From positions 1 to 60,636 of IMG/VR virus record IMGVR_UViG_3300019768_000005: a stretch of DNA of 60,636 bases. One strand, 5' to 3'. The position numbers and the translations under genes are program-made. The first letter of the stretch is position 1. Every line of letters begins with the position of its first letter. Source of the stretch: a virus. Of the stretch, positions 2,337 to 17,484 are shown piece by piece. Below the pieces are notes generated by a model. The model ran no database searches. It was not told where the DNA came from and saw only the letters and a list, made by a program, of their open reading frames with translations.

Positions 2337-2516
2337 TTATCTCCCATCCCCGATCCGTTTAATTACGTCATTTGCTTTCTTTAAATCAACCGCCATAAAC
2401 TTTAGCATCTCTGTTTTCTGCAAAGAAACTTTCAATAAGTCTTTATACGCCTGCTCCAAATCTTCCCTGGAAAGGCTTGATACATCAACCGTGGTGTGTT
2501 TAATAATTTTGCCCAA
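2337..2516 (-). CDS. Small helical hypothetical protein (TTG start)
   Basis: The frame extends upstream inside the helicase gene, but the plausible start is TTG at 2516, with AGGGGG six bases before it. This gives 59 residues rich in charged helices (REDLEQAYKDLLK), overlapping the last 17 bases of the DnaB gene. The function is unknown. Overlap suggests translational coupling with the helicase. Confidence 0.6.
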   Translation of the reverse strand: MGKIIKHTTVDVSSLSREDLEQAYKDLLKVSLQKTEMLKFMAVDLKKANDVIKRIGDGR

Positions 2517-4860
2517 CGCCAACCCCCTGGTGAAAATATGTTGTTTCGTGATGGAACATGATATTTTTGTCTGTGTATTTTGCGCCACTTCTGTTTTTTG
2601 CAAGATCTATAATTGCCATACCCTTCAACCCCTCTTTTTCCTCCTCAGAATCAGCATATTCTTCTGGCCTATGGATAAAAATTACAGCGTCTGCATCCTC
2701 TTCGATTTTACCTGATTGCTTTAAATCAGACAGTATCGGTCTTTTGTTACTCCTGGCCTTTAAATCCCGGTTTAGTTGTGCAAGCAAAACAATCGGTATT
2801 CCAAGTTCTTTTTTTAAAGATGATAGTCTTGTCGTATTTTCGGAATAACGAGTGGTTAAATCACTGCTGTTTACCTCCCGGTTACCGATCTGTGACAATT
2901 GATCAATAAAAAGTATCTCAGCACCTTTGTTTTTCATTCTGCGGCCTTTTCGCTCAACGTCTGATATATCCACCCCTCCCATGGAATCAATTTGGATATT
3001 GCTATTGTAATATACGCCTGCTGCATCATTCACCATTTGGTATTCTTGCATGTTAAGGCCTTTATACTGCCCGAATTTGGATGCGGTTACAGTTGATTCC
3101 ATGGACAATAATCTATCAATCATCTCAAATTCTGGCATTTCGATAGAGATTAACCCGGCATGAACGCCTGCCCGGTCAAGATTTTTTATCGCTGTCAATG
3201 CAAAAGATGTATTGTGCGTCACGGTAAAATCACCCAATAAGAACAAACCGTCACCGTCAAGCTCAAACCCGTAATAATCACCCTTGCCGATAGGAGAAAC
3301 ATTAACACCAGTGACTAAAACGTCTTTAATTTGCCTTCTCTCTCTTGCTACTTTTCTACCTAACTTGCACGGAATTTCACATGTCTGCCCTGAAATCAAA
3401 ATACGGTAGTATTTCTTTTTCTCAGTCCATCCTTGCGCCTTCTTAAATGACTCATTCAAGCTAACAAAGAAGCCCAATGACCTGGCAATAAAGGTTATGT
3501 CCTCTGCTAACTGTTTACTTTTTTGGATAATCTCATATGAATTTTTGTCTAAATGACCATCAGTGTCAATTATGCCAGCAAGCAAATCAACCCTGTCCAA
3601 AGCAGGCGCCGTTTTATATTTTTGAGGAATAAATAGGCATTTATCAAGGCCCAGCTTTCTTATTTTTTCAAGAAACGCATTTGGTTTTCCACCTGTCCGC
3701 CCGCTTGTTAGAAAATATGTCGGGCACCTTGTTCCGTTACTGTCTTGCTTTCTTATCCCAAGCCCTATTGATTTCCCGTATTCAACCCATGCGTTCTTTA
3801 TTTCTTCATCAGGGGTCGTAATCCCACCATGGTTAGAACTGTGGTTACCATCACCAAGCCATAATCCAAGTTCATATGGTGGAATTTCAAACACACTGTT
3901 TTTTTCATCAAAGACAACGCCAGTTTTCCAACCTTTTGCCTTTTCTTTGAATTTTTTATTAGACGCAAGGTACTCGTCAATAGAAATGTTTATTGTACTG
4001 CCGCCACGGAACCCATAAACATTGTGTTTTCCTGAAATCTTTAATGACAATATATGATCTTTATTAACAATATAATTATCACCTTTTTTTTGGTCCACGA
4101 GATATAAATCATCATATCCTTTAGCTGTCGACTGGACTGTCTTTGGCATGCTATCCGGACCCATAAGTTTATCTCCTGGCACAACGTCTTGAACCATTTT
4201 AACTGAACCATCGTACATGATGACAGGAGTGTCTAATCCAAGGCACTTTCCGGCACCAGGTCTTCCGGCCACAACTATCAACTTAGGTCCCTTTGTTTTA
4301 AGCCGTTTATCCAGGCCAGGGAATCCAAACCGAAGGAAGTTCTCAACTTGTGTTGTATTCGCAGCGTCGATACGTTCCATGTGTTCTTGAATTATGTCTC
4401 TAACATTTCGGATATCGTCTTCATGGCCAGACCCAGTAATTGCCAAAACTCCTTTCTGCGCATCGCTCAATATGTCATTCCCAAGTTTGTCAGAATGTAG
4501 GATTTCAGAGCAAACTTTTTTTATTTGCCTGGTTATTGAGCATTCCTTAATAATGTCCATGTATTGATTGATTTTAAAAAGAGGCGAATTATCAAGGATT
4601 TTAAGCATATCCATTTCTGTTAACGAACCGCCATCAGGAAAATCCTTTTTTGTTTGGTGACAAAAAGTAACAACATCAACAGGGTCTTTCCTTGAAAGCA
4701 TGTTCAGGATCGTTTTAAATGCGTTTCCGTGGCGTTTTGAATAAAAGTCATCCGGTTGTACTCGCATTTGATCAAAGAGGCTGTTTTGGGTAACTATGGA
4801 GCCTATAAGACTACATTCCGCGTCAATGTCATGGGCTGGGAGATCGTTGTTAAAATCCAT
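2500..4860 (-). CDS. dnaB: Replicative DnaB-type helicase with an intein
   Basis: This 786-residue precursor would become a 441-residue RecA-fold replicative helicase after loss of a 345-residue intein. The N-terminal DnaB domain (about 1-140) starts with AHDIDAECSLIGS. The Walker A loop GRPGAGK ends at residue 205 and is cut there by the intein, continuing with TSFALT at 551. Walker B-like LFIDQL, the arginine-finger region (KNRSG) and the SIEMP block follow. It unwinds DNA ahead of the phage fork. It lies behind the small loader-like gene and the replication initiator, overlapping the former, in unit A. The intein site is the conserved ATP-binding loop, so splicing is required for activity. 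Confidence 0.93.
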   Translation of the reverse strand: MDFNNDLPAHDIDAECSLIGSIVTQNSLFDQMRVQPDDFYSKRHGNAFKTILNMLSRKDPVDVVTFCHQTKKDFPDGGSLTEMDMLKILDNSPLFKINQYMDIIKECSITRQIKKVCSEILHSDKLGNDILSDAQKGVLAITGSGHEDDIRNVRDIIQEHMERIDAANTTQVENFLRFGFPGLDKRLKTKGPKLIVVAGRPGAGKCLGLDTPVIMYDGSVKMVQDVVPGDKLMGPDSMPKTVQSTAKGYDDLYLVDQKKGDNYIVNKDHILSLKISGKHNVYGFRGGSTINISIDEYLASNKKFKEKAKGWKTGVVFDEKNSVFEIPPYELGLWLGDGNHSSNHGGITTPDEEIKNAWVEYGKSIGLGIRKQDSNGTRCPTYFLTSGRTGGKPNAFLEKIRKLGLDKCLFIPQKYKTAPALDRVDLLAGIIDTDGHLDKNSYEIIQKSKQLAEDITFIARSLGFFVSLNESFKKAQGWTEKKKYYRILISGQTCEIPCKLGRKVARERRQIKDVLVTGVNVSPIGKGDYYGFELDGDGLFLLGDFTVTHNTSFALTAIKNLDRAGVHAGLISIEMPEFEMIDRLLSMESTVTASKFGQYKGLNMQEYQMVNDAAGVYYNSNIQIDSMGGVDISDVERKGRRMKNKGAEILFIDQLSQIGNREVNSSDLTTRYSENTTRLSSLKKELGIPIVLLAQLNRDLKARSNKRPILSDLKQSGKIEEDADAVIFIHRPEEYADSEEEKEGLKGMAIIDLAKNRSGAKYTDKNIMFHHETTYFHQGVGVGQNY
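3211..4245 (-). mobile_element. Intein with LAGLIDADG homing endonuclease in DnaB
   Basis: The element spans codons 206-550. It starts with Cys (CLGLDTPVIM), has the N-terminal splicing block with NKDH around intein residues 61-64, and ends FTVTHN before Thr551. The two LAGLIDADG-type motifs are LGLWLGDG (about 126-133) and LLAGIIDTDG (221-230), each with the acidic catalytic residue. All splicing residues (Cys1, block B His, C-terminal His-Asn, Thr+1) are present, so it looks active both for splicing and homing. Confidence 0.92.
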
Positions 4861-5104
4861 ATTTCTTCAAAACCTCATCTCTTGTTGTTGCCTCTGAATG
4901 ACTAAATATTACCGACGGGACCGGAAAAAATCTCTCGGTTTTTGCAATCTTTACGCAAGCCTTGGCAAATGATTCGTTTGACATCTCATCTTTCAATAAG
5001 TCGTAATAGATACGCGCACGGTCAACGTTGAAGTCATAGTTAAATATCAATTCAAGTTTTTTCATTTCGTCTTTGAATATAGTTTTATCTAAAAGTTGGC
5101 CCAT
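4850..5104 (-). CDS. Small helicase loader-like replication protein
   Basis: This 84-residue all-helical protein (DRARIYYDLLKDEMSNESFAKACVKI, read in two parts, then RFFPVPSVIF) matches the pattern of short domains found beside phage replication initiators and DnaB helicases. It overlaps both the initiator gene (16 bp) and the helicase gene (11 bp). From its place I infer a role in bringing DnaB to the origin. No AAA+ motifs are present, so this is a positional guess. Confidence 0.6.
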   Translation of the reverse strand: MGQLLDKTIFKDEMKKLELIFNYDFNVDRARIYYDLLKDEMSNESFAKACVKIAKTERFFPVPSVIFSHSEATTRDEVLKKYGF

Positions 5105-5898
5105 TTGTCCTCGTTTTGTTTTTTTGTAATGGTTTTATTATTGTTAAAATATTCAGGCTTAGGCTTAAGCCACTCCTCTTGCATCGTCCTTTCCAAGCAA
5201 TCAACCGGATCAAGCCCAGCCCTGATCAAATCACCTACGCTTGTTAATAGCCCATCTATACCTCTTGTTGTTTTATACCTGCTGCCTGCCGTGAGGCTCA
5301 TTCTGTATTTAATAAAAGAAATCAAGTCGCTTTGGTATTCAACAAAAGAAGTGCCGTTGATTTTCTCAATCAAATAATTCTCGAATTCTTTTTCCTTGGA
5401 AACCTTCTTTTCCCCTTGGGGGGTTAGGGGGGTATTTAGTTCTTTATTCTTTCTTTCTTCTCCTTCTTTAATAATGGCAAGACGCTCCTGGTCTGTTGCT
5501 GGTTGCTTCATTGGTCTGTTGCTGGTTGCTTCATTGGTCTGTTCGTAGTTTTTAGGGTCTTGGTAATAATCGTAATTACAGATAGTTATCATATTCCCCC
5601 TTGGACGCTTCGTTAGTGCTATCATGTGGTTGTTCATAAGACCCTTCATGCAGCCCTTCATCTGGCTCACAGTGTAACGCATTATTGTACATCCTTTATA
5701 CCACTTTAAATCATCCCTAATCTGTTGATATGACCGAAAAAGTTGCCCACGCTTAACAATGAAGCCATCATATTTTTGTTCAACATAATTTGCGTTTCGT
5801 AATAAATAAAACCATGTTTCTCTGGTTACAGGGGCTGAGTGTGAAATCCATGATTCATCTATGCACCTTGGCTGCAAAATGTATCCACCGTTAATCAT
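5089..5898 (-). CDS. Replication initiation / replisome organizer protein
   Basis: This 269-residue protein has an N-terminal winged-helix region (about 20-110; TWFYLLRNANY, FIVKRGQLFRSYQQI), typical of phage O-like and DnaD-like initiators, then a Gln/Thr/Lys-rich linker with two copies of ATSNRPMKQPATDQ-like wording, and a helical C-terminal domain. Such proteins bind the phage origin and recruit the helicase. The adjacent loader-like and DnaB genes support this. The start at 5898 is three codons after the TAG of the HTH gene. Confidence 0.75.
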   Translation of the reverse strand: MINGGYILQPRCIDESWISHSAPVTRETWFYLLRNANYVEQKYDGFIVKRGQLFRSYQQIRDDLKWYKGCTIMRYTVSQMKGCMKGLMNNHMIALTKRPRGNMITICNYDYYQDPKNYEQTNEATSNRPMKQPATDQERLAIIKEGEERKNKELNTPLTPQGEKKVSKEKEFENYLIEKINGTSFVEYQSDLISFIKYRMSLTAGSRYKTTRGIDGLLTSVGDLIRAGLDPVDCLERTMQEEWLKPKPEYFNNNKTITKKQNEDKWANF

Positions 5899-5911: not shown

Positions 5912-6073
5912 CTACTTTATTTTTTTGAGATGGCGGTATACTGCTGGCAGTGACAAAGAAAGAGCATTTGCAATCTCAACACCTGTCGCATTCCTGTTTT
6001 TTTCAAAATAAGCTTTTACTTTTTCAAAATTCCTTTTTCCTGCATTTTTGCCTGTTTTTGGAATATACTTCAT
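5912..6073 (-). CDS. Small helix-turn-helix protein
   Basis: This 53-residue protein has a basic N-terminus, then FEKVKAYFEKNRNATGVEI and ALSLSLPAVYRHLKK, a clear helix-turn-helix with recognition helix SLPAVYRHLKKI. It shares length, layout and C-terminal HTH with the proteins at 7253..7426 and 11991..12173. Each lies in a different transcription unit behind a related promoter cassette. It sits between the first gene of unit A and the replication initiator, so it may regulate replication genes. Confidence 0.7.
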   Translation of the reverse strand: MKYIPKTGKNAGKRNFEKVKAYFEKNRNATGVEIANALSLSLPAVYRHLKKIK

Positions 6074-6077
6074 TTTT

Positions 6078-6332
6078 TTAAACCTTTTTGCGGTTAATAA
6101 ATAATTCTGCGTTACGAGCTTTTAGCGCCTGGCACGATTTCCGGTAATCAGTATATAATGGGCAGCTTCTACGTGAGGATCTACTTATAGGGCAATCAGG
6201 AGCGCAACAAATTTCACTGACACTTGATGGATGTGCGCAAAATTTTGCAACAGATCCATTTTCAAAATCTTTCGGCAAACCCAAAGACATCCAGAAACAA
6301 TCATTACTATTGATTATAATATCCCAAGTCAT
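6078..6332 (-). CDS. Cys-rich hypothetical protein
   Basis: This 84-residue protein has at least seven cysteines (ICCAPDCPISRSSRRSC and others), suggesting a metal site. I do not recognise the family. An AAGGA ribosome binding site precedes the ATG. It is the first gene after promoter cassette A, ahead of the HTH and replication genes. Confidence 0.65.
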   Translation of the reverse strand: MTWDIIINSNDCFWMSLGLPKDFENGSVAKFCAHPSSVSEICCAPDCPISRSSRRSCPLYTDYRKSCQALKARNAELFINRKKV

Positions 6333-6367: not shown

Positions 6368-6435
6368 TTATATACCACGACAAAAAATATATTGCAAGAG
6401 AATAACCGGCTGCCGAAACAGCCGGGTTGTTTGTT
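6368..6435 (-). promoter_or_regulatory. Terminator-promoter cassette A
   Basis: In minus-strand order, a CCGGCTG/CAGCCGG hairpin (6406-6425) is followed by -35 TTGCAA (6392-6397), a 17-bp spacer and -10 TATATA (6369-6374). The 68 bp match cassette B (7457-7524) at 66 positions. It ends the radical SAM unit and starts the replication unit. Confidence 0.8.
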
Positions 6436-6443
6436 ATGTGTTG

Positions 6444-6602
6444 TTAAATATGAAAAGGAACAATACCGTCCCAATCGTAAGATAAAACGCCATTTGGATG
6501 ATATATTAATTCGAAGGCCTGGTCATTATTTAAAATACTTATTGGCTCTGTGACGCCATGTGAGGTATGCACGGTTATCCCACGGATAAACCTGGTGTGC
6601 AT
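6444..6602 (-). CDS. Small hypothetical protein downstream of the radical SAM gene
   Basis: This 52-residue frame starts three bases after the radical SAM stop and ends just before terminator A. The sequence (HGVTEPISILNNDQAFELI, then GVLSYDWDGIVPFHI) is protein-like and beta-rich, although the ribosome binding site (AGGA) is rather distant. Close coupling suggests it works with the radical SAM protein, perhaps as a substrate or partner. That is inference. Confidence 0.55.
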   Translation of the reverse strand: MHTRFIRGITVHTSHGVTEPISILNNDQAFELIYHPNGVLSYDWDGIVPFHI

Positions 6603-6605
6603 GCG

Positions 6606-7250
6606 TCAAACATATCCTGAAGACTCTTTGTTTATTATGCTATACCCTGATAGCTCCTTGTCAGTTGTAAGGTCATATATTTGGTCTGGGCTGCTTATCT
6701 CTCTAAACTTAACAGCGTATGCGTCTATGTCCCGGCACCAATCAATCATGGAATCTATGTCAAGGCCCTTAGTTACAACACAGTTTATAGTTACTGGTAT
6801 TCCGCACTTATGTGCCTTTAGAATAAAAGCTTTCATCTGTCTTGTAGTTTTAAACCCAGAATTAGTGTTTAATATACGACTATTACCAATAACATATGGT
6901 TTGTGCCTTGAAACATTTATAAAATCAACCATTCTGTCATTTATAATTTCATCAAGATCGAGTATCCCGAATCCATTGGTTGTTAAAACTACCTTTTCAA
7001 ATCGGTCTCTTAATATCCTTGCTGCTTTTGTTAAGTTTAAAATATCAAGAGTTGGCTCCCCTCCTGTGATACTCACCTGTTTGAATTTCTCAGGCAACCC
7101 ACCAACGACAAATTTAAGTTTTTCAAGCCAGGCTGATTTATCAAGTTCGGTATTCTGGTCATATTTATAAAAACAGAAATCACAAGAGGCATTGCACCCT
7201 CCTGGCATAATCACGCTGAAATTTGGATCATCTACTATAAAGTTTCTCAT
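6606..7250 (-). CDS. Radical SAM domain protein
   Basis: The cluster motif CNASCDFC (CxxxCxxC, near the N-terminus) binds a 4Fe-4S centre and is followed by SITGGEPTL, the SAM-binding GGEP motif. A TIM-barrel-like remainder ends near residue 214. The family makes a 5'-deoxyadenosyl radical. The substrate cannot be told here. Three ATGs (7256, 7253, 7250) follow AGAGGGG, and the last has the best spacing. It follows an HTH gene with overlapping stop and start, in the unit next to thymidylate synthase, so DNA or nucleotide modification is possible. It is shorter than QueE-type or PFL-activase enzymes I can compare from memory and lacks the extra cysteine clusters of SPASM proteins. Confidence 0.85.
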   Translation of the reverse strand: MRNFIVDDPNFSVIMPGGCNASCDFCFYKYDQNTELDKSAWLEKLKFVVGGLPEKFKQVSITGGEPTLDILNLTKAARILRDRFEKVVLTTNGFGILDLDEIINDRMVDFINVSRHKPYVIGNSRILNTNSGFKTTRQMKAFILKAHKCGIPVTINCVVTKGLDIDSMIDWCRDIDAYAVKFREISSPDQIYDLTTDKELSGYSIINKESSGYV

Positions 7251-7252
7251 CA

Positions 7253-7426
7253 TCATTCCCCTCTCTGAATAGCAACAACATGTTTTTTGACAGTAGGCCA
7301 TGTAAACCCAAGCGCCCTTGCGCAGTCTGCAATATTCCTTTCCGGGTTTAGCTCAAACCATTTCTTTATTCTTGCCCTGTTTTTTTTGGCGTAAATAATA
7401 CCGCCCGTACCGCGTCCGTTTTTCAT
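7253..7426 (-). CDS. Small helix-turn-helix protein (paralogue of 11991..12173)
   Basis: This 57-residue protein has a basic N-terminus and the HTH NIADCARALGFTWPTVKKHV, ending VAIQRGE. The protein at 11991..12173 has the matching end TDCSRALNLAWQTVKKHV, then VSIQKGE. In both, the stop codon overlaps the ATG of a large enzyme gene in a GGGGAATGAT context. A strong GGAGG site precedes the ATG. It is probably a transcription regulator of its own unit, driven by cassette B. Confidence 0.75.
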   Translation of the reverse strand: MKNGRGTGGIIYAKKNRARIKKWFELNPERNIADCARALGFTWPTVKKHVVAIQRGE

Positions 7427-7456
7427 AACTACCTCCTATTTAATGTTTGTATTTGA

Positions 7457-7524
7457 TTATATACCACGACAAAAAATATATTGCAAGAGAAAAACCGGCT
7501 GCCGAAACAACCGGGTTGTTTGTT
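7457..7524 (-). promoter_or_regulatory. Terminator-promoter cassette B
   Basis: A hairpin (7495-7514) ends the thymidylate synthase unit. Then come -35 TTGCAA (7481-7486), 17 bp and -10 TATATA (7458-7463), reading into the HTH gene at 7426. It differs from cassette A at only two of 68 positions. Confidence 0.8.
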
Positions 7525-7530
7525 TAAGAG

Positions 7531-8397
7531 TTAAACAGCAATGTCGAATTTAATTTTTGGGTGGTGCTGATATCCATGCAAAACAGTATCAGTGTACTCC
7601 CAATCAAAAATTGACGTGAAATTAGGTGTTTTTATGTTTGGAAGGTCTTTCGGCAATCTTTCAAGTTGATCTTTAATTCCATGTATGTGGTTTTTGTAAA
7701 TATGGGTGTCTCCAAGGAAGCCGATTAGCTTTCCTGGTTTAAATCCTGATTCCATGGCCAGGAGCGTTAGTAGAAGGCCGTAACTTGCAATGTTGAATGG
7801 CAGCCCCAGGGCAACGTCAACGGATCTCATGTTCCACATGAGATTGAGTCGCCCATTTATTACCGTGACCTGGAATGCATAATGGCATGGTGGGATGGCC
7901 ATGCGATAGAGTTGTTGTGGATTCCAAGCAGATACTATCATCCTACGGTCATCTGGATTGGTTTTAAGCGTGGCTACCAGGTTTTTAAGCTGATCCACAC
8001 CAGCATAAAATGGATCCTCGTCCCAACCCCGATATTCACTTCCGAAAAAACGCCACATAAACCCATAAATAGGTCCAAGATCACGTTCGGCCCTCATCCA
8101 TTTTTTTGTTTTTTCATCATTCTCGTAGGCAACCTTAGCGGGTGAGCACCAGTCATCCCAGATATGATTGTTTCTGTCCTGCAGCCACTTTTTATCCGTT
8201 ATGCCTTTGATGAAGAATTCCAATTCTGAGGAAACGAGTCTGAATGGAACATATTTACTGGTAAGCAATGGGAACCCCTCGGCCATGTCATGTTCAAACA
8301 TCGCCCCGGCAATGGCAATGGTGTTTACTCCGGTACGGTTTTCTTTGATTTGGCCCTGGTTAAGGACCTTCCTGGCTATTTGCTTATATGCTATCAT
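7531..8397 (-). CDS. thyA: Thymidylate synthase
   Basis: This is a full-length 288-residue ThyA-family enzyme that converts dUMP and methylene-tetrahydrofolate to dTMP. Visible motifs include RTG near residue 21, LGPIYGFMWR, MIVSAWNP, the catalytic cysteine in IPPCHYAFQ (about residue 171), RSVDVALGLPFNIASY and GDTHIYKNH. The Asn in PFNIASY, which selects dUMP, is kept, so I do not read it as a dCMP hydroxymethylase. The ATG at 8397 follows AAGGAGAT; a TTG two codons earlier is less likely. It would supply dTTP for phage DNA synthesis. Confidence 0.95.
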   Translation of the reverse strand: MIAYKQIARKVLNQGQIKENRTGVNTIAIAGAMFEHDMAEGFPLLTSKYVPFRLVSSELEFFIKGITDKKWLQDRNNHIWDDWCSPAKVAYENDEKTKKWMRAERDLGPIYGFMWRFFGSEYRGWDEDPFYAGVDQLKNLVATLKTNPDDRRMIVSAWNPQQLYRMAIPPCHYAFQVTVINGRLNLMWNMRSVDVALGLPFNIASYGLLLTLLAMESGFKPGKLIGFLGDTHIYKNHIHGIKDQLERLPKDLPNIKTPNFTSIFDWEYTDTVLHGYQHHPKIKFDIAV

Positions 8398-8412
8398 TCT
8401 CAATCTCCTTTT

Positions 8413-8640
8413 CTATTTTTTAATCAACCAAGCCTTTGGCCGTTTCGTGGGTGTTACGAACTCAACTGGTACGATAAGCTGCATACCGGCTAAACGTGTT
8501 TCTAACGTCGATACGTGTTCTTCCAGGGTGTGGATTTTTTCCATGGCAGCGATTTGCCTATCATCGAAATCTGACAATAGGTAAAAAGTGCAAGCAGTAT
8601 TAAATAATAAAAATATTATTAATAGCCTGTGTGGTGTCAT
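8413..8640 (-). CDS. Single-pass membrane protein with coiled coil
   Basis: This 75-residue protein has one N-terminal transmembrane segment (LLIIFLLFNTACTFYLL) and then a coiled coil (about 28-52). Its start overlaps the stop of the upstream gene in TAATG. The plan resembles an inner-membrane spanin or an anchored regulator, but it lies among early genes far from the endolysin, so I leave the role open. Confidence 0.65.
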   Translation of the reverse strand: MTPHRLLIIFLLFNTACTFYLLSDFDDRQIAAMEKIHTLEEHVSTLETRLAGMQLIVPVEFVTPTKRPKAWLIKK

Positions 8641-8933
8641 TATTCTTCCCACGTCCGCTTTATTGTGTCCAAAACAGCTTGGGCGTTTTCTTTTGTTTTT
8701 TTTAGTGTCCATGTTAAATATGCACTACCTTCTTCTTCGCAATATGTAACACCTTCTCCCCATTTTACTGGGCAATATTCGCAGCTTCCAGCTTCAAGAC
8801 AAGCATGACAAAAATAATGGGATATCACCTCATTACATAATTCACTGTGAACCTCCGCCCACTCTTCTTTATCGGATTCGTTGTCTACAATCCACTGCCA
8901 CATATCGATGCATTTTTGCTTGTTTGATTTCAT
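8640..8933 (-). CDS. Cys-rich hypothetical protein, paralogue of 17182..17484
   Basis: This 97-residue protein contains NKQKCIDMWQWIVDNESDK, then CHACLEAGSCEYCPVKWG (several cysteines) and a C-terminal helix KTKENAQAVLDTI. The plus-strand gene at 17182 encodes a clearly related protein with the same blocks. It is probably a zinc-binding protein of unknown role. A GGAGG site precedes the ATG, with a small hairpin at 8952-8972 just upstream. Confidence 0.75.
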   Translation of the reverse strand: MKSNKQKCIDMWQWIVDNESDKEEWAEVHSELCNEVISHYFCHACLEAGSCEYCPVKWGEGVTYCEEEGSAYLTWTLKKTKENAQAVLDTIKRTWEE

Positions 8934-8951
8934 TATTCCTCCTTTTGTTAC

Positions 8952-8972
8952 CCGTGGCCATATAGACCACGG
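8952..8972 (-). promoter_or_regulatory. Leader hairpin upstream of a ribosome binding site
   Basis: CCGTGG and CCACGG arms with a 9-base loop lie a few bases before the AAAGGAGG of the gene at 8933. It is a looser member of the hairpin family described at 13654-13669. Confidence 0.45.
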
Positions 8973-8989
8973 CTGTTGGTTGTTTCAGC

Positions 8990-9337
8990 CTATCCCATAG
9001 ACCATTTAATTAAATCTTGCTTGTTGGTAAACACAGGTATCCCTAACGAGCCAGCCTCTTTTATTTCAGCTAATGTTCCTGCGGAATCCTGCCACCCGGG
9101 TACAAGGAACACCGCATCTGATGCTTTGAGCCACTCTATTGAATATTTATAAAATTGCTCAATAGTGAAGTCTGCCTCTGGATTATCAATAATAAAAGAC
9201 GCATCGCTCCACGGGCAAAACGGATGAAACCCGATCTGGAATAGTTTGGCGCACATTTTCCTTCCAACTCCAATGTTTTTTAAAACGTCAATTACATTTC
9301 CAGCCGAATATGGTCCTGCTACGTAGATTCTTTTCAT
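8990..9337 (-). CDS. DUF4406 / nucleoside 2-deoxyribosyltransferase-like protein
   Basis: This 115-residue protein starts with the diagnostic KRIYVAGPYSAGN and keeps the acidic residues in FCPWSDASF and the SIEWLKASDAVFLVPGW block of the nucleoside deoxyribosyltransferase fold. Members of this clan handle nucleotides or nucleosides. The start overlaps the end of the helicase-methyltransferase gene by four bases. With thymidylate synthase nearby, a nucleotide-metabolism role is likely. The exact reaction is not known. Confidence 0.8.
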   Translation of the reverse strand: MKRIYVAGPYSAGNVIDVLKNIGVGRKMCAKLFQIGFHPFCPWSDASFIIDNPEADFTIEQFYKYSIEWLKASDAVFLVPGWQDSAGTLAEIKEAGSLGIPVFTNKQDLIKWSMG

Positions 9338-11994
9338 TTTATAGATGCCTCTTCGATAAAGTCAAAAAGAGACTTTTGATTTTGATTTCTCTCAAATGCT
9401 TCAAGGTATTTTACACCATCTTTAAAATATTCATGGTTTAGCTCACTCGCCATACCATATCTACCCATTTTAATGGCCATGTATGGGACCGTCATTATAC
9501 CGCCAAAAGGGTCAAATACGACATCTCCCTTGTTGCTGTATCTGTTAATTATTCTTTTAACAATATCCATCTGCAACGGGCAGATATGGTTGTTTTGGTT
9601 GCGTTTTGTTTGGCTTGTGTTTAATGTCAACATTCTATTTATGTCAGTCCAAACAGATGGGTCTTCGCTTTCAGGGGCGATACTCATAAATGTCGATGGA
9701 AGTTTCCCATGGTCGTCAACAACTTCACCGATCTTTATGTGTTCGTCATAATCATATATTTTTTCACGGCTGTATTTTTTAAATTCAGACACAAAATCAA
9801 GCGTGTTTAATTGCGTCATTTCATCTTGGCACAACAATCTATCTCCTGACGATTTCCAAAAAGCATGAGCGTCAACCTGCCACCGAGCGCGTGAATATTC
9901 TGTGTCTTTTTTAAAGTGGTGATATTCACCGCATTCATTACATAGCCACTTCCGTTCTTCTTCTTGACCATATAAAAGTGGCTCTTCGTTAAGATCTTCT
10001 GTTTTTATATCTTCGCATTTTTTGGGCACATGACCACAACTTGGGCATGCATGTTTTATTTTTTTTTGTTTTGATATAGGCTCATCTGCATATCCCTTAG
10101 TCCTGTCGGTTTGTGGTTTCCGAAATATCAGGATGTATTCCGGAGACCCTACACCCATTTTAGACCCATCTTTGCATTGCTCAGACCATCCAAGCCTATA
10201 TGTTTGATTGTTTTCCCTTACTACATCTGTAACAACTGTGATCATTCCGAGATAGTCAAACCCATGTTGCATCCCATGGAAAATGCATTCAGCGTGAAAT
10301 GGTGATACTGTCGGAGCACCCTTGCCTGTTACATTCCCGAAAAGGATTCTATCTTTTACGTGGCAGGCATATATCCTACCTGGTTTTAAAATCCTCACCA
10401 ACTCTGGAGTTAAATAATCCATCTGTTTCCAAAAATGGCCATTCGATGAAGTAAACCCAAAATCGTTATAAGATGGTGTATATTCGTAATGGTTCGCAAA
10501 TGGAATCGATGTATGTATAAGGCCAACAGACTCACTTCCTATTCGTCTTGTTTCGTCAACACAATCATTGTTAATGACACTGAAATTTTCACCTGAAACC
10601 TCATTCCTGTCAATGCCTATAGTTCTTTGCATGTCTTTAATGCGCGATGCGTTAGATAAGCCATATTTTTTAATAATATCTGTCATTTTATCAACCATTA
10701 CATCGTGTCTTTGCCACTTCTTTTTAAGCACTTCCAGGATACCTATTTCAGACGATGCGTAAATTATGTGGATGTGACACTCAGCAGTTTGTAAAAACCT
10801 GTAAATACGGTGGACAGCCTGGATGAAATCATTAAACTTAAATCCTATCCCAAGAAAAATAGAGTTATGGCAATATCTCTGGAAATTGCACCCTGATCCT
10901 GACAATATAGGTTTTGTTGCCAGGTGTTGAAATTTCCCGTTTGAAAAATCAATGATGCGCTGTTCACGAGTGTCCAAATCTTGTGAACCATAGACATCTT
11001 TCACAGTAGGAAGTGCTTTTTTTATAGCATGGCGCTCTATTTCTTGATCATGCCAGATAATAAAATGGTCTTCTGGATCTGCATTGATAATCTCGGCCAT
11101 TTTCTCGATACGATTATCAAGGGAATTACGTTTCTCCATGCTGGCAGCCTGCAAAGACATTGCAGCATCACCAAACATTAGAGTTTGACCATCCCTCTTA
11201 TCTATCCGTTCGATATCCCCTGATGCTACCTCATGATAATGGACATGCAATTTAGGTAAAATGTAACCATCATCAGGATATCCCAAATCAGATGGCTTTT
11301 GCAAAAAGATGGCCCACGATGAAACCCACAACCAGAACCGCTTTTCCATGTGCGGGTGGATTTGCAAATTATTTGCTTTTGTTGAATCTCGTTTAAAAAA
11401 CCTTGTGAGAGCCTGCCCTGTATCCATAACACCCAAGAAACCTGCATAGTGGATCAATTCTTTGTATCTGTTTGGAGATGGTGTGGCTGTAGCAACAAAA
11501 CGATATTTAACGCTTTTGAAAGCAGTCAAGAACGTCTGAAACGTCTTAGATCCATATGATCTCAAAACGCTGGCTTCATCCAGGCAAACTCCGTTGAATT
11601 GGTTTACATCCAAACGGAAATCTCTAACAGATTCATAATTTGTAATATAAATCCCTGGGCCGGATATTTCTTCTGTGCGCCGAATAAAAGTTATTTTAAT
11701 ACCAAGCTTTTCAGCGTCAATCTTAAATTCTTGCCTTACTCCCAAAGGTGCTATTATTAATTGATTACCGTGTTCTCGTTTGCCGATTATGCGCAATATT
11801 TCAAGCTGCATAAACGATTTTCCGAGCCCGAATGAAGCGAATATTGCACGGCAACCTCCGAGCAGCGACCATGACACAATATCCTTTTGATGAGGTTTTA
11901 ACAGTTGGTTTATTTCGTCTTGATTGATTTCAAACCCTGTTGAAATAGACACGTCTATTTTGTTTTCAAGAAACTTTTGATATTCCACGATCAT
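9334..11994 (-). CDS. Fused SNF2/DEAD-like helicase and DNA methyltransferase
   Basis: In this 886-residue protein, residues 1-440 form a superfamily 2 helicase: Walker A SFGLGKS (54-60), DEAS box (139-142), ATATPSPN motif III (168-175) and motif VI QAVHRIYR (392-399). Residues 470-870 form an amino-methyltransferase: motif IV-like TSIPF (495-499) and the SAM-binding DPFGG block (828-832), with a zinc ribbon inserted (C650, C653, C685, C688). Motif IV has Ile where N4/N6 enzymes normally have Pro (SPPY). The ATG at 11994 overlaps the stop of the HTH gene. It probably modifies phage DNA against host restriction, with the helicase moving along DNA. Confidence 0.85.
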   Translation of the reverse strand: MIVEYQKFLENKIDVSISTGFEINQDEINQLLKPHQKDIVSWSLLGGCRAIFASFGLGKSFMQLEILRIIGKREHGNQLIIAPLGVRQEFKIDAEKLGIKITFIRRTEEISGPGIYITNYESVRDFRLDVNQFNGVCLDEASVLRSYGSKTFQTFLTAFKSVKYRFVATATPSPNRYKELIHYAGFLGVMDTGQALTRFFKRDSTKANNLQIHPHMEKRFWLWVSSWAIFLQKPSDLGYPDDGYILPKLHVHYHEVASGDIERIDKRDGQTLMFGDAAMSLQAASMEKRNSLDNRIEKMAEIINADPEDHFIIWHDQEIERHAIKKALPTVKDVYGSQDLDTREQRIIDFSNGKFQHLATKPILSGSGCNFQRYCHNSIFLGIGFKFNDFIQAVHRIYRFLQTAECHIHIIYASSEIGILEVLKKKWQRHDVMVDKMTDIIKKYGLSNASRIKDMQRTIGIDRNEVSGENFSVINNDCVDETRRIGSESVGLIHTSIPFANHYEYTPSYNDFGFTSSNGHFWKQMDYLTPELVRILKPGRIYACHVKDRILFGNVTGKGAPTVSPFHAECIFHGMQHGFDYLGMITVVTDVVRENNQTYRLGWSEQCKDGSKMGVGSPEYILIFRKPQTDRTKGYADEPISKQKKIKHACPSCGHVPKKCEDIKTEDLNEEPLLYGQEEERKWLCNECGEYHHFKKDTEYSRARWQVDAHAFWKSSGDRLLCQDEMTQLNTLDFVSEFKKYSREKIYDYDEHIKIGEVVDDHGKLPSTFMSIAPESEDPSVWTDINRMLTLNTSQTKRNQNNHICPLQMDIVKRIINRYSNKGDVVFDPFGGIMTVPYMAIKMGRYGMASELNHEYFKDGVKYLEAFERNQNQKSLFDFIEEASIK

Positions 11995-12173
11995 TCCCCT
12001 TTTTGTATAGAAACAACATGTTTTTTTACTGTTTGCCAAGCCAAGTTCAAAGCCCTTGAACAATCAGTAACTGTTCTGCCTGGGTTTGATAAAAACCATC
12101 GTTTAACCCGCTCTCTATTCCGATTTGAAACTTCGCGCATTCCGCTTGTTTTATCGCTTTTAACGTCTATCAT
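11991..12173 (-). CDS. Small helix-turn-helix protein (paralogue of 7253..7426)
   Basis: This 60-residue protein ends with the HTH TDCSRALNLAWQTVKKHV and VSIQKGE, nearly the same ending as the HTH protein at 7253. A good AAGGAG site precedes the ATG. It is the first gene after cassette C and overlaps the start of the helicase-methyltransferase gene, so it is probably a local regulator of that unit. Confidence 0.75.
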   Translation of the reverse strand: MIDVKSDKTSGMREVSNRNRERVKRWFLSNPGRTVTDCSRALNLAWQTVKKHVVSIQKGE

Positions 12174-12211
12174 CTAATGCTCCTTTTGATATTGATTTCG
12201 TATTCGAATTA

Positions 12212-12285
12212 TATATAGCATGGCAAAAAATATATTACAATGTTTTAAAACAGATGTTACCGAAATTCATTTCGGTAACATCTGT
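12212..12285 (-). promoter_or_regulatory. Terminator-promoter cassette C
   Basis: A 16-bp stem hairpin (12250-12265 with 12270-12285) is followed on the minus strand by TTTT, then -35 TTGTAA (12235-12240), a 17-bp spacer and -10 TATATA (12212-12217). The promoter matches cassettes A and B, including the spacer core TATATTTTTTG, but the hairpin sequence is different. Confidence 0.8.
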
Positions 12286-12293
12286 TCCGTTGG

Positions 12294-13447: not shown

Positions 13448-13636
13448 TTAAGGCCTTTTATCGGCTTGCCCTGGTATAGTTGGTTGTTCTTCGCTTTTTG
13501 TTAGAGATATACTACCAGGGAAAATAAAGGCAAAAAGAGGCCATAGACTATGGGTAAAATATATTGCAAGACACACCCCTGCTGATGTTGCAACCCATGC
13601 TAATCCGTAAGCTAAATATGCCATTTCATCTGCCAT
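13448..13636 (-). CDS. Small membrane protein
   Basis: This 62-residue protein has two hydrophobic segments (YLAYGLAWVATSAGVCLAIY and LWPLFAFIF) and a polar C-terminal tail. The ATG at 13636 follows AAAAGGAGAA, with a GAAA-capped hairpin just upstream. No family is recognised. Confidence 0.65.
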   Translation of the reverse strand: MADEMAYLAYGLAWVATSAGVCLAIYFTHSLWPLFAFIFPGSISLTKSEEQPTIPGQADKRP

Positions 13637-14415: not shown

Positions 14416-14444
14416 ACTATACATACCTCAATGAGGTATGTCAA
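14416..14444 (-). promoter_or_regulatory. Promoter with a perfect 21-bp operator palindrome
   Basis: On the minus strand -35 TTGACA (14439-14444) and -10 TATAGT (14416-14421) are 17 bp apart. A perfect palindrome (14421-14441; ACATACCTCA, one centre base, TGAGGTATGT) fills the spacer and touches both boxes. A dimeric repressor bound there would block polymerase. Confidence 0.85.
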
Positions 14445-14484
14445 CACCTTTTAAATAAATTGTAAAAATAAAACTTTGCAGATT

Positions 14485-14517
14485 AAAAAAGCCCAACCGG
14501 TTATGGATGGGCTTTTG
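14485..14517. terminator. Intrinsic terminator
   Basis: A 12-bp stem with one mismatch (14487-14498 with 14505-14516) has an A run and TTTT on its flanks. It ends the unit coming from 14749 before the palindrome promoter. Confidence 0.8.
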
Positions 14518-16830: not shown

Positions 16831-17031
16831 CTATTCCATCCTTGCAGGGTCGCAAAGAACTGATTTTGGTATTCCAAGTTTACGCAATTTTTTAAACACA
16901 GCCGGATTAATAGGCCTTTTACCAGTATTCCATCCGGACATGGTTTGTGCCGTAACCCCCAGGACCTTTGCAGCTTCTCCTAATGACATCATAGCCTCTT
17001 CCCTAAGTGCTTTTTTCAGTGCTGTTTCCAT
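16831..17031 (-). CDS. Cro/YdaS-like regulator
   Basis: This 66-residue protein has the HTH SLGEAAKVLGVTAQTMSGWN followed by GKRPINPAVFKKLRKLGIP, the plan of Cro/YdaS-type phage repressors that bind as dimers. It is transcribed away from the plus-strand recombination operon across a region with two promoters and repeated TAACT half-sites. It is the best candidate for the early genetic switch. Confidence 0.8.
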   Translation of the reverse strand: METALKKALREEAMMSLGEAAKVLGVTAQTMSGWNTGKRPINPAVFKKLRKLGIPKSVLCDPARME

Positions 17032-17044
17032 AACAATCTTCCTT

Positions 17045-17147
17045 TTTAAGTTAAAATCTAACTAAACATAATTTAACTAAAAATTAAAGTCAACTTAAAA
17101 TAAATTTAAAAATAACAGTTGACATCCTGTCCGGTACGGCATATGTT
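17045..17147. promoter_or_regulatory. Divergent promoter-operator region
   Basis: Minus strand: -35 TTGACT (17088-17093), 17 bp, -10 TATGTT (17065-17070), towards the Cro-like gene. Plus strand: -35 TTGACA (17119-17124), 17 bp, -10 TATGTT (17142-17147). AGTTA-5-TAACT (17049-17063) and two TAACTAAA copies 15 bp apart (17059, 17074) overlap the minus promoter, fitting autoregulation by the HTH protein. Confidence 0.75.
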
Positions 17148-17181
17148 TGTCGTGCGGTTAACTTTTAATTTTGGAGGCGTT

Positions 17182-17484
17182 ATGGTGGACAAAACAAACA
17201 GACAAAAATGCATAGAAATGTGGCAATGGATAGTCGACAACGAATCTGATAAAGAGGCTTGGGCGGACGAGCACCCGGAAGAGGCTAAAGTGATTGCAGA
17301 ATATGTATATTGCCACGCATGCCTTGAAGCAAAAAACTACTGCAATCATTGTCCGGTGTTGTGGGGTTGTGAAAACGCCTGTTGCAGTCAAGGCAGTCCA
17401 TATATGGCATGGCTTAATGATAGAACAAAAGAAAATGCCAAAGCGGTTTTGGATGTGATCGATAGAACTTGGGAGGAAAAATGA
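17182..17484 (+). CDS. Cys-rich protein, paralogue of 8640..8933
   Basis: This 100-residue protein shares QKCIEMWQWIVDNESDK, a CHACLEAKNYCNHCPVLWG Cys cluster and the final helix TKENAKAVLDVIDRTWEE with the minus-strand protein at 8640. The ATG at 17182 follows GGAGG; upstream in-frame codons lie within the promoter. It is the first gene of the plus operon and overlaps the RecE-like gene. Confidence 0.8.
   Translation: MVDKTNRQKCIEMWQWIVDNESDKEAWADEHPEEAKVIAEYVYCHACLEAKNYCNHCPVLWGCENACCSQGSPYMAWLNDRTKENAKAVLDVIDRTWEEK

Follow-up and report, generated by a model that had tools for sequence, protein, structure and literature searches.

A phage moron is a gene with its own promoter and terminator, and the radical SAM unit of the virus described here resembles one in lying between two terminator-promoter repeats. 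The start-associated sequences (SAS) and extended SAS of Cluster K mycobacteriophages are, like the cassettes reported below, a repeated non-coding element placed before several unrelated genes, in some cases with upstream inverted repeats (PMC3203893). The Cluster A mycobacteriophage stoperators, named in PMC9283540, are likewise repeated transcription-acting sites spread between phage genes. Our cassettes are also similar to extended -10 sigma70 promoters, including the epsilonproteobacterial type, in the TG one base before a TATA-type -10, the weak -35, the T-rich upstream DNA and a leader of 20-50 nt (PMC3656092). The TG 5' of the -10 and the base composition of the spacer matter for polymerase binding and for the response to supercoiling, and AT-rich spacers alter promoter behaviour (PMC8695583), while the normal Campylobacter promoter, by the C. 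jejuni consensus, joins periodic A/T-rich upstream DNA to TGxTATAAT (PMC3656092); thus, a conserved T-rich spacer alone does not require a regulator. A search of the open literature for repeated phage terminator-promoter cassettes found no direct precedent with the terms tried.

The window, i.e., the whole stretch of DNA analysed, is an entire virus record of 60,636 bases with a GC content of about 40% and without tRNAs, and its genes for portal (phrog_145), terminase, head morphogenesis, major head and tape measure proteins are marks of a tailed phage. The portal and major head proteins have distant relatives (<60% identity) in phages of many hosts, including the Pseudomonas phages PaMx28 and AAT-1. 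From about 17.0 kb to 0.2 kb the genes lie mainly on the minus strand, leading away from a divergent control region with an XRE-type HTH at 17.03-17.12 kb, and the three cassettes, here called A, B and C, are located within this leftward early region of about 17 kb in the same minus-strand orientation as the surrounding genes. The divergent region (17031-17160) comprises the leftward XRE-type HTH gene, a rightward TTGACA-type promoter and repeated TTAACTA-like words between them. Paralogous small Cys-rich proteins (MWQWIVDNESDKE...) are encoded on opposite strands at 8640-8933 (-) and 17119-17484 (+).

The pattern TTGYAATATATTTTTTGYCRTGSTATATA was found on the minus strand at 6369-6397 (promoter A), 7458-7486 (promoter B) and 12212-12240 (promoter C), each time with a hairpin 5' and a start codon 31-38 nt 3', and did not occur in shuffled sequence. 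Promoter A reads TTGCAA-TATATTTTTTGTCGTGG-TATATA with the extended -10 TG directly 5' of TATATA, promoter B is the same across the whole 29-mer, and promoter C reads TTGTAA-TATATTTTTTGCCATGC-TATATA and is followed by a leader containing TTCGAATACGAA. All three sites share one order, namely an upstream stop codon, the hairpin, TTGYAA-17-TATATA with TG, a leader with RBS, and the start. With up to 3 mismatches allowed, the 29-mer TTGYAATATATTTTTTGNCNTGNTATATA has exactly three occurrences in the window and none in 100 dinucleotide shuffles, which bears out the positions that the first-pass annotation had given for a hairpin followed by TTG(C/T)AA-17-TATATA; the 11-mer core alone, with 1 mismatch allowed, does not stand out from chance (9 occurrences in the window vs 5.4 expected). 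The window holds 25 TGnTATAWW sites, and a strong upstream hairpin together with an RBS and start just downstream was seen at A, B and C only. A candidate fourth copy at 13556-13595 was rejected, since only its end TTGCAATATATTTT matches and it lies inside a coding region with no -10, and TTTGTCGTG near 17147 (+) was set aside as a 9-mer of which about 0.5 are expected by chance. One further terminator-promoter boundary, the fourth, differs in type; it is present in a single copy at 14416-14502 (-), where a terminator-like GCCCA...TGGGCTTTTTT is followed by TTGACA-17-TATAGT; the spacer of this predicted promoter (14416-14444) overlaps the near-perfect palindrome ACATACCTCATTGAGGTATGT, a likely operator within the promoter.

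The hairpins themselves are less uniform than the promoters. Hairpin A (6406-6425, minus strand) is terminator-like, lies 5' of promoter A and folds at -14.7 kcal/mol (z -3.3), and hairpin B (7495-7514, minus strand) has an 8-bp stem at -12.3 kcal/mol (z -2.4) in a 68-bp block with two differences from that of A; both are of one kind with a UUCG loop. Hairpin C (approximately 12246-12288, minus strand) is stronger, with a perfect 19-bp stem at -26.0 kcal/mol (z -7.3), and is unrelated to them in sequence; the earlier description of three repeated cassettes needs correction in that their hairpins do not form one family. A search of the window against Rfam returned no match, and a simple terminator scan passed A and B, with C absent from its output. 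The hairpins are stable and the putative terminator tails TTATTCTCTT, TTTTTCTCTT and TTTTAAAACA are interrupted; the interrupted T-tails of A and B make their strength as terminators uncertain.

The TGn directly 5' of the TATA-type -10 is TGGTATATA in A and B and TGCTATATA in C; in the 17-nt register the -10 hexamer is TATATA, without the consensus final T, and TATAAT or TATAAC appears only 2-4 nt further on at a variable distance. Judged from these letters, the cassettes are best read as a terminator plus an extended -10 (TGnTATATA) promoter of the sigma70 type, and they would work like that type, with a strength made uncertain by the missing T at the last -10 position and an exact class that is uncertain as well, having been assigned by the sigma70-type consensus, from which that of the host may differ. 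We put at about 70% the probability that they are operon boundaries, each made of a hairpin and a host-read extended -10 promoter linked to a small HTH gene and copied within the genome. At each boundary in the long early region the hairpin would end or attenuate the transcript arriving from upstream, and the host housekeeping RNA polymerase would read the extended -10 together with the weak -35 (TTGYAA) and the AT-rich 17-nt spacer, restarting transcription roughly 25-30 nt 5' of the next gene.

The gene content behind the promoters agrees with the earlier proposal that predicted terminator-promoter boundaries split the early genes into a replication (A), a radical SAM (B) and a helicase-methyltransferase (C) unit, all on the minus strand. 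Unit A starts with an 84-aa ORF without a family match (6078-6332), followed by a small HTH protein of 53 aa (5912-6073), a DnaD-like helicase loader (5089-5898; phrog_2514, E=1e-18) and a DnaB-type replicative helicase (2500-4860), whose large internal insertion of roughly 340 residues after the Walker A motif (GAGKC...VTHNT) is intein-like by sequence. In unit B the first gene encodes a small HTH protein of 57 aa (7253-7426), its stop overlapping the start of the next gene, which encodes a radical SAM protein (6606-7301; PF04055, E=2e-14); a search for this protein in viral contigs confirmed none. Unit C comprises the gene for a 60-aa HTH protein (11991-12173), a fusion of an SNF2-like helicase with a DNA N6-N4 methyltransferase (9334-12063), small genes, and lastly thymidylate synthase (ThyA, 7531-8403; PF00303, E=3e-90). 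The long-ORF starts of the radical SAM gene (7253-7301) and the helicase-methylase gene (11991-12063) run into the HTH genes, and translation of the two genes probably begins at the ATGs that overlap the stops of the HTH genes (GGGGAATGATG and GGGGAATGATC, respectively).

A paralogous small HTH gene is thus present in each unit, first in B and C and second in A, which is an addition to the earlier observation. The B and C proteins are 49-51% identical, and that of A shares 33-35% with the others, being strongly diverged within the HTH itself. No curated family model matches these proteins of about 53-60 residues confidently. The AlphaFold model of the C protein is a three-helix HTH (mean pLDDT 80), with which Foldseek finds many winged-helix and HTH domains, none below E 0.2; from fold and sequence, a DNA-binding role is likely. 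Searches for the HTH elsewhere gave 46 pattern matches in genome contigs, none of them confirmed, and weak matches only in phage and plasmid records (E 0.2-0.9).

Cassettes A and B are near-exact repeats of 68 bp (6368-6435 and 7457-7524, minus strand) that cover the terminator and the promoter as far as the -10. A repeat comparison confirmed the reported match of 66/68 bases and found its edges to be abrupt: the identity ends at TATATAA, and the leaders, first genes and HTH genes differ. The two copies are direct repeats flanking the radical SAM unit, 1,089 bp from start to start, and they are recent or homogenised, because the promoters are nearly identical while the HTH proteins are only about a third identical. 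The genome accordingly holds two independent versions of the core only. One could suppose that all the conservation reflects recent copying, i.e., that recombination duplicated a promoter fragment, the radical SAM unit having inserted between A and B in the manner of a moron, and that the copies have had no time to diverge. This is in line with the extent and edges of the A/B repeat, with the differing genes adjoining it and with its placement around a 1-kb unit, 68 bp being enough for homologous recombination in principle. For A and B it coincides with the operon-boundary explanation; it competes with it for C, which it does not explain, as the hairpin and HTH gene of C are strongly diverged (56% nucleotide identity for the gene) while its promoter is 86% identical, and the GC content of the radical SAM unit (0.381) is like that of its neighbours (0.39-0.40). 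We regard recent copying alone as a tentative alternative, with the odds somewhat against it.

A distant relative recognised by several proteins, the 53.8-kb contig IMGVR_UViG_3300002220_000428 (G001), is the one informative relative in this comparison. Its HTH protein is 59% identical to that of C, and in a single copy it has the layout of stop codon, hairpin (-11.7 kcal/mol), TTGACTTTTTATTTTGCTTTGGTATATATAAT, a 37-nt leader, the HTH gene and then a DnaD-like replication gene, with TGGTATATA again directly 5' of the -10. In this distant relative, no radical SAM gene is named within 5 kb downstream of the HTH gene. The presence of the spacer core in related phages was a check set beforehand, and the outcome was divided: the G001 spacer TTTTATTTTGCTTTGG is partly alike (T-rich, TTTTGC, TG), and it is 16 nt instead of 17 and does not keep the core. 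Its promoter matches that of C at 21/28 positions plus a gap, and when the -35 and spacer part was shuffled, an equally good match arose in 32/1000 cases for C and 173/1000 for A/B. Of 2.9 million viral contigs, one alone had the exact core with the -10, namely IMGVR_UViG_3300019764_000018; it agrees with the window at every one of the 8,974 bases compared and does not extend to A or B. The core without the -10 (TTGNAATATATTTTTTGNCNTG) occurs in four other viral contigs, as one orthologous antisense stretch within a DNA-polymerase-like ORF that has no TATA box, and was dismissed as chance. The best match in a BLAST search of the 68-bp block against phages had an E of about 6. Neither core nor HTH was found in the helicase-methylase relatives (L005-L015, L017), the HTH was not found in a DnaD relative (L023), with none upstream by eye, and the relatives of the 101-aa gene at 215-520 (L031-L036) gave no HTH in a record-wide search run without an internal positive control. 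In two related contigs (L006, 1614-1740; L007, 1-130), a sequence that is tRNA-Leu-like by resemblance lies directly 5' of the helicase-methyltransferase gene.

These sequence comparisons support the view that a promoter-HTH module was duplicated or homogenised. The module would be the promoter linked to the small HTH gene, probably once single and placed before the replication genes as in G001, and now present in three copies. B and C would go back to an old duplication that included their HTH gene and is about as old as the split from G001, because the HTH distances are nearly equal (B-C 51%, B-G001 57%, C-G001 57-59%). A recent event, probably recombination, would have copied or homogenised the promoters of A and B, leaving the radical SAM unit between the 68-bp direct repeats, from where recombination between A and B would excise it cleanly.

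The first-pass annotation had argued that the spacer is conserved beyond the need of a promoter and that a shared regulator may bind it. The promoters of B and C are identical at 25/29 positions compared with 96/171 (56%) in the HTH genes (p = 6e-4), and the promoter is probably under selection because its identity exceeds that of the genes. Outside TTG, TG and TATATA, however, the match is only 14/18, with p about 0.05 at the 56% background of the HTH genes and 0.19 at 65%, and the 11/11 match of the core was picked after being seen. Therefore, a constraint at the level of the promoter is supported, and a dedicated spacer site is not.

A spacer-binding regulator is possible as far as the sequence goes. 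In its full form this idea is a phage regulon, in which at least one of the small HTH proteins would bind the core TATATTTTTTGYCRTG and jointly repress or activate the three promoters in a shared autoregulatory circuit. The HTH genes stand directly behind promoters B and C, one gene behind A, and directly behind the single promoter of G001, and the three-helix model is confident; the B and C proteins are also about as far apart (51%) as from G001 (57%), yet promoters B and C agree at 25/29 ungapped positions against 21/28 plus a gap for C and G001, a hint of co-evolution within one genome, with 4 vs 7 differences too few for proof. The core, on the other hand, contains no operator-type palindrome and no inverted or direct repeat that we could see, in contrast to the promoter at 14416-14444 with its textbook operator, and is not kept in G001, A and B are recent copies of each other, the HTH of A has strongly diverged, and the Foldseek matches stay above E 0.2. 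The earlier argument from the spacer to a shared regulator was consequently not upheld, its link to the small HTH proteins survives as one of position, and we consider the regulon unlikely.

A sub-case of the operon-boundary explanation would account fully for the spacer, namely a host promoter class in which a T-rich region replaces a strong -35, as in Campylobacter (PMC3656092), so that the T-run is a requirement of the polymerase. All four promoters, that of G001 included, carry the T-run and TGnTATATA, and both the effect of AT-rich spacers (PMC8695583) and the C. jejuni consensus (PMC3656092) agree with such a class. The other predicted promoter of the phage, at 14416-14444, is of the classic type, however, and the exact core including the -10, a strict pattern, was found in none of 84,980 genomes. 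Compared with Campylobacter, the T-run is also shifted upstream by about 6 nt, and we judge this class improbable.

The operon-boundary explanation suggests how a phage may break a long early operon into parts, namely by making copies of a single stop-and-restart signal along with a very small HTH gene. A bolder and, in our estimate, improbable view would see the promoter and the tiny HTH as a self-regulating module copied three times before different early functions, the similarity of its promoters being maintained because they co-evolve with cross-acting HTH paralogues or are homogenised around them. The locus offers a small testable circuit of three promoters that are nearly identical and the three HTH paralogues, along with a relative carrying a single copy of both, and if binding by the HTH proteins is real, the circuit would reveal how a regulator and its promoter, once duplicated, remain matched or diverge.

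Compared with the described systems, the SAS is a 13-bp element that adjoins the start codon, occurs in many copies per genome and is conserved across Cluster K, whereas here three copies consist of a hairpin and a promoter and their core is not conserved in relatives. Stoperators are binding sites of the immunity repressor and end elongation at numerous genomic positions, in contrast to hairpins with promoters and no known repressor site in our phage. Unlike a moron, the radical SAM unit is situated inside the early region with a GC content like that of its neighbours, and no relative lacking just that unit was found. The cassette promoters differ from extended -10 sigma70 promoters in a 17-nt spacer that is nearly invariant among the copies, in TATATA instead of TATAAT and in a T-run that does not adjoin the -10. 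Repeated operon boundaries in phages are a known kind of arrangement, and what is unusual here is that the link to a very small HTH gene recurs.
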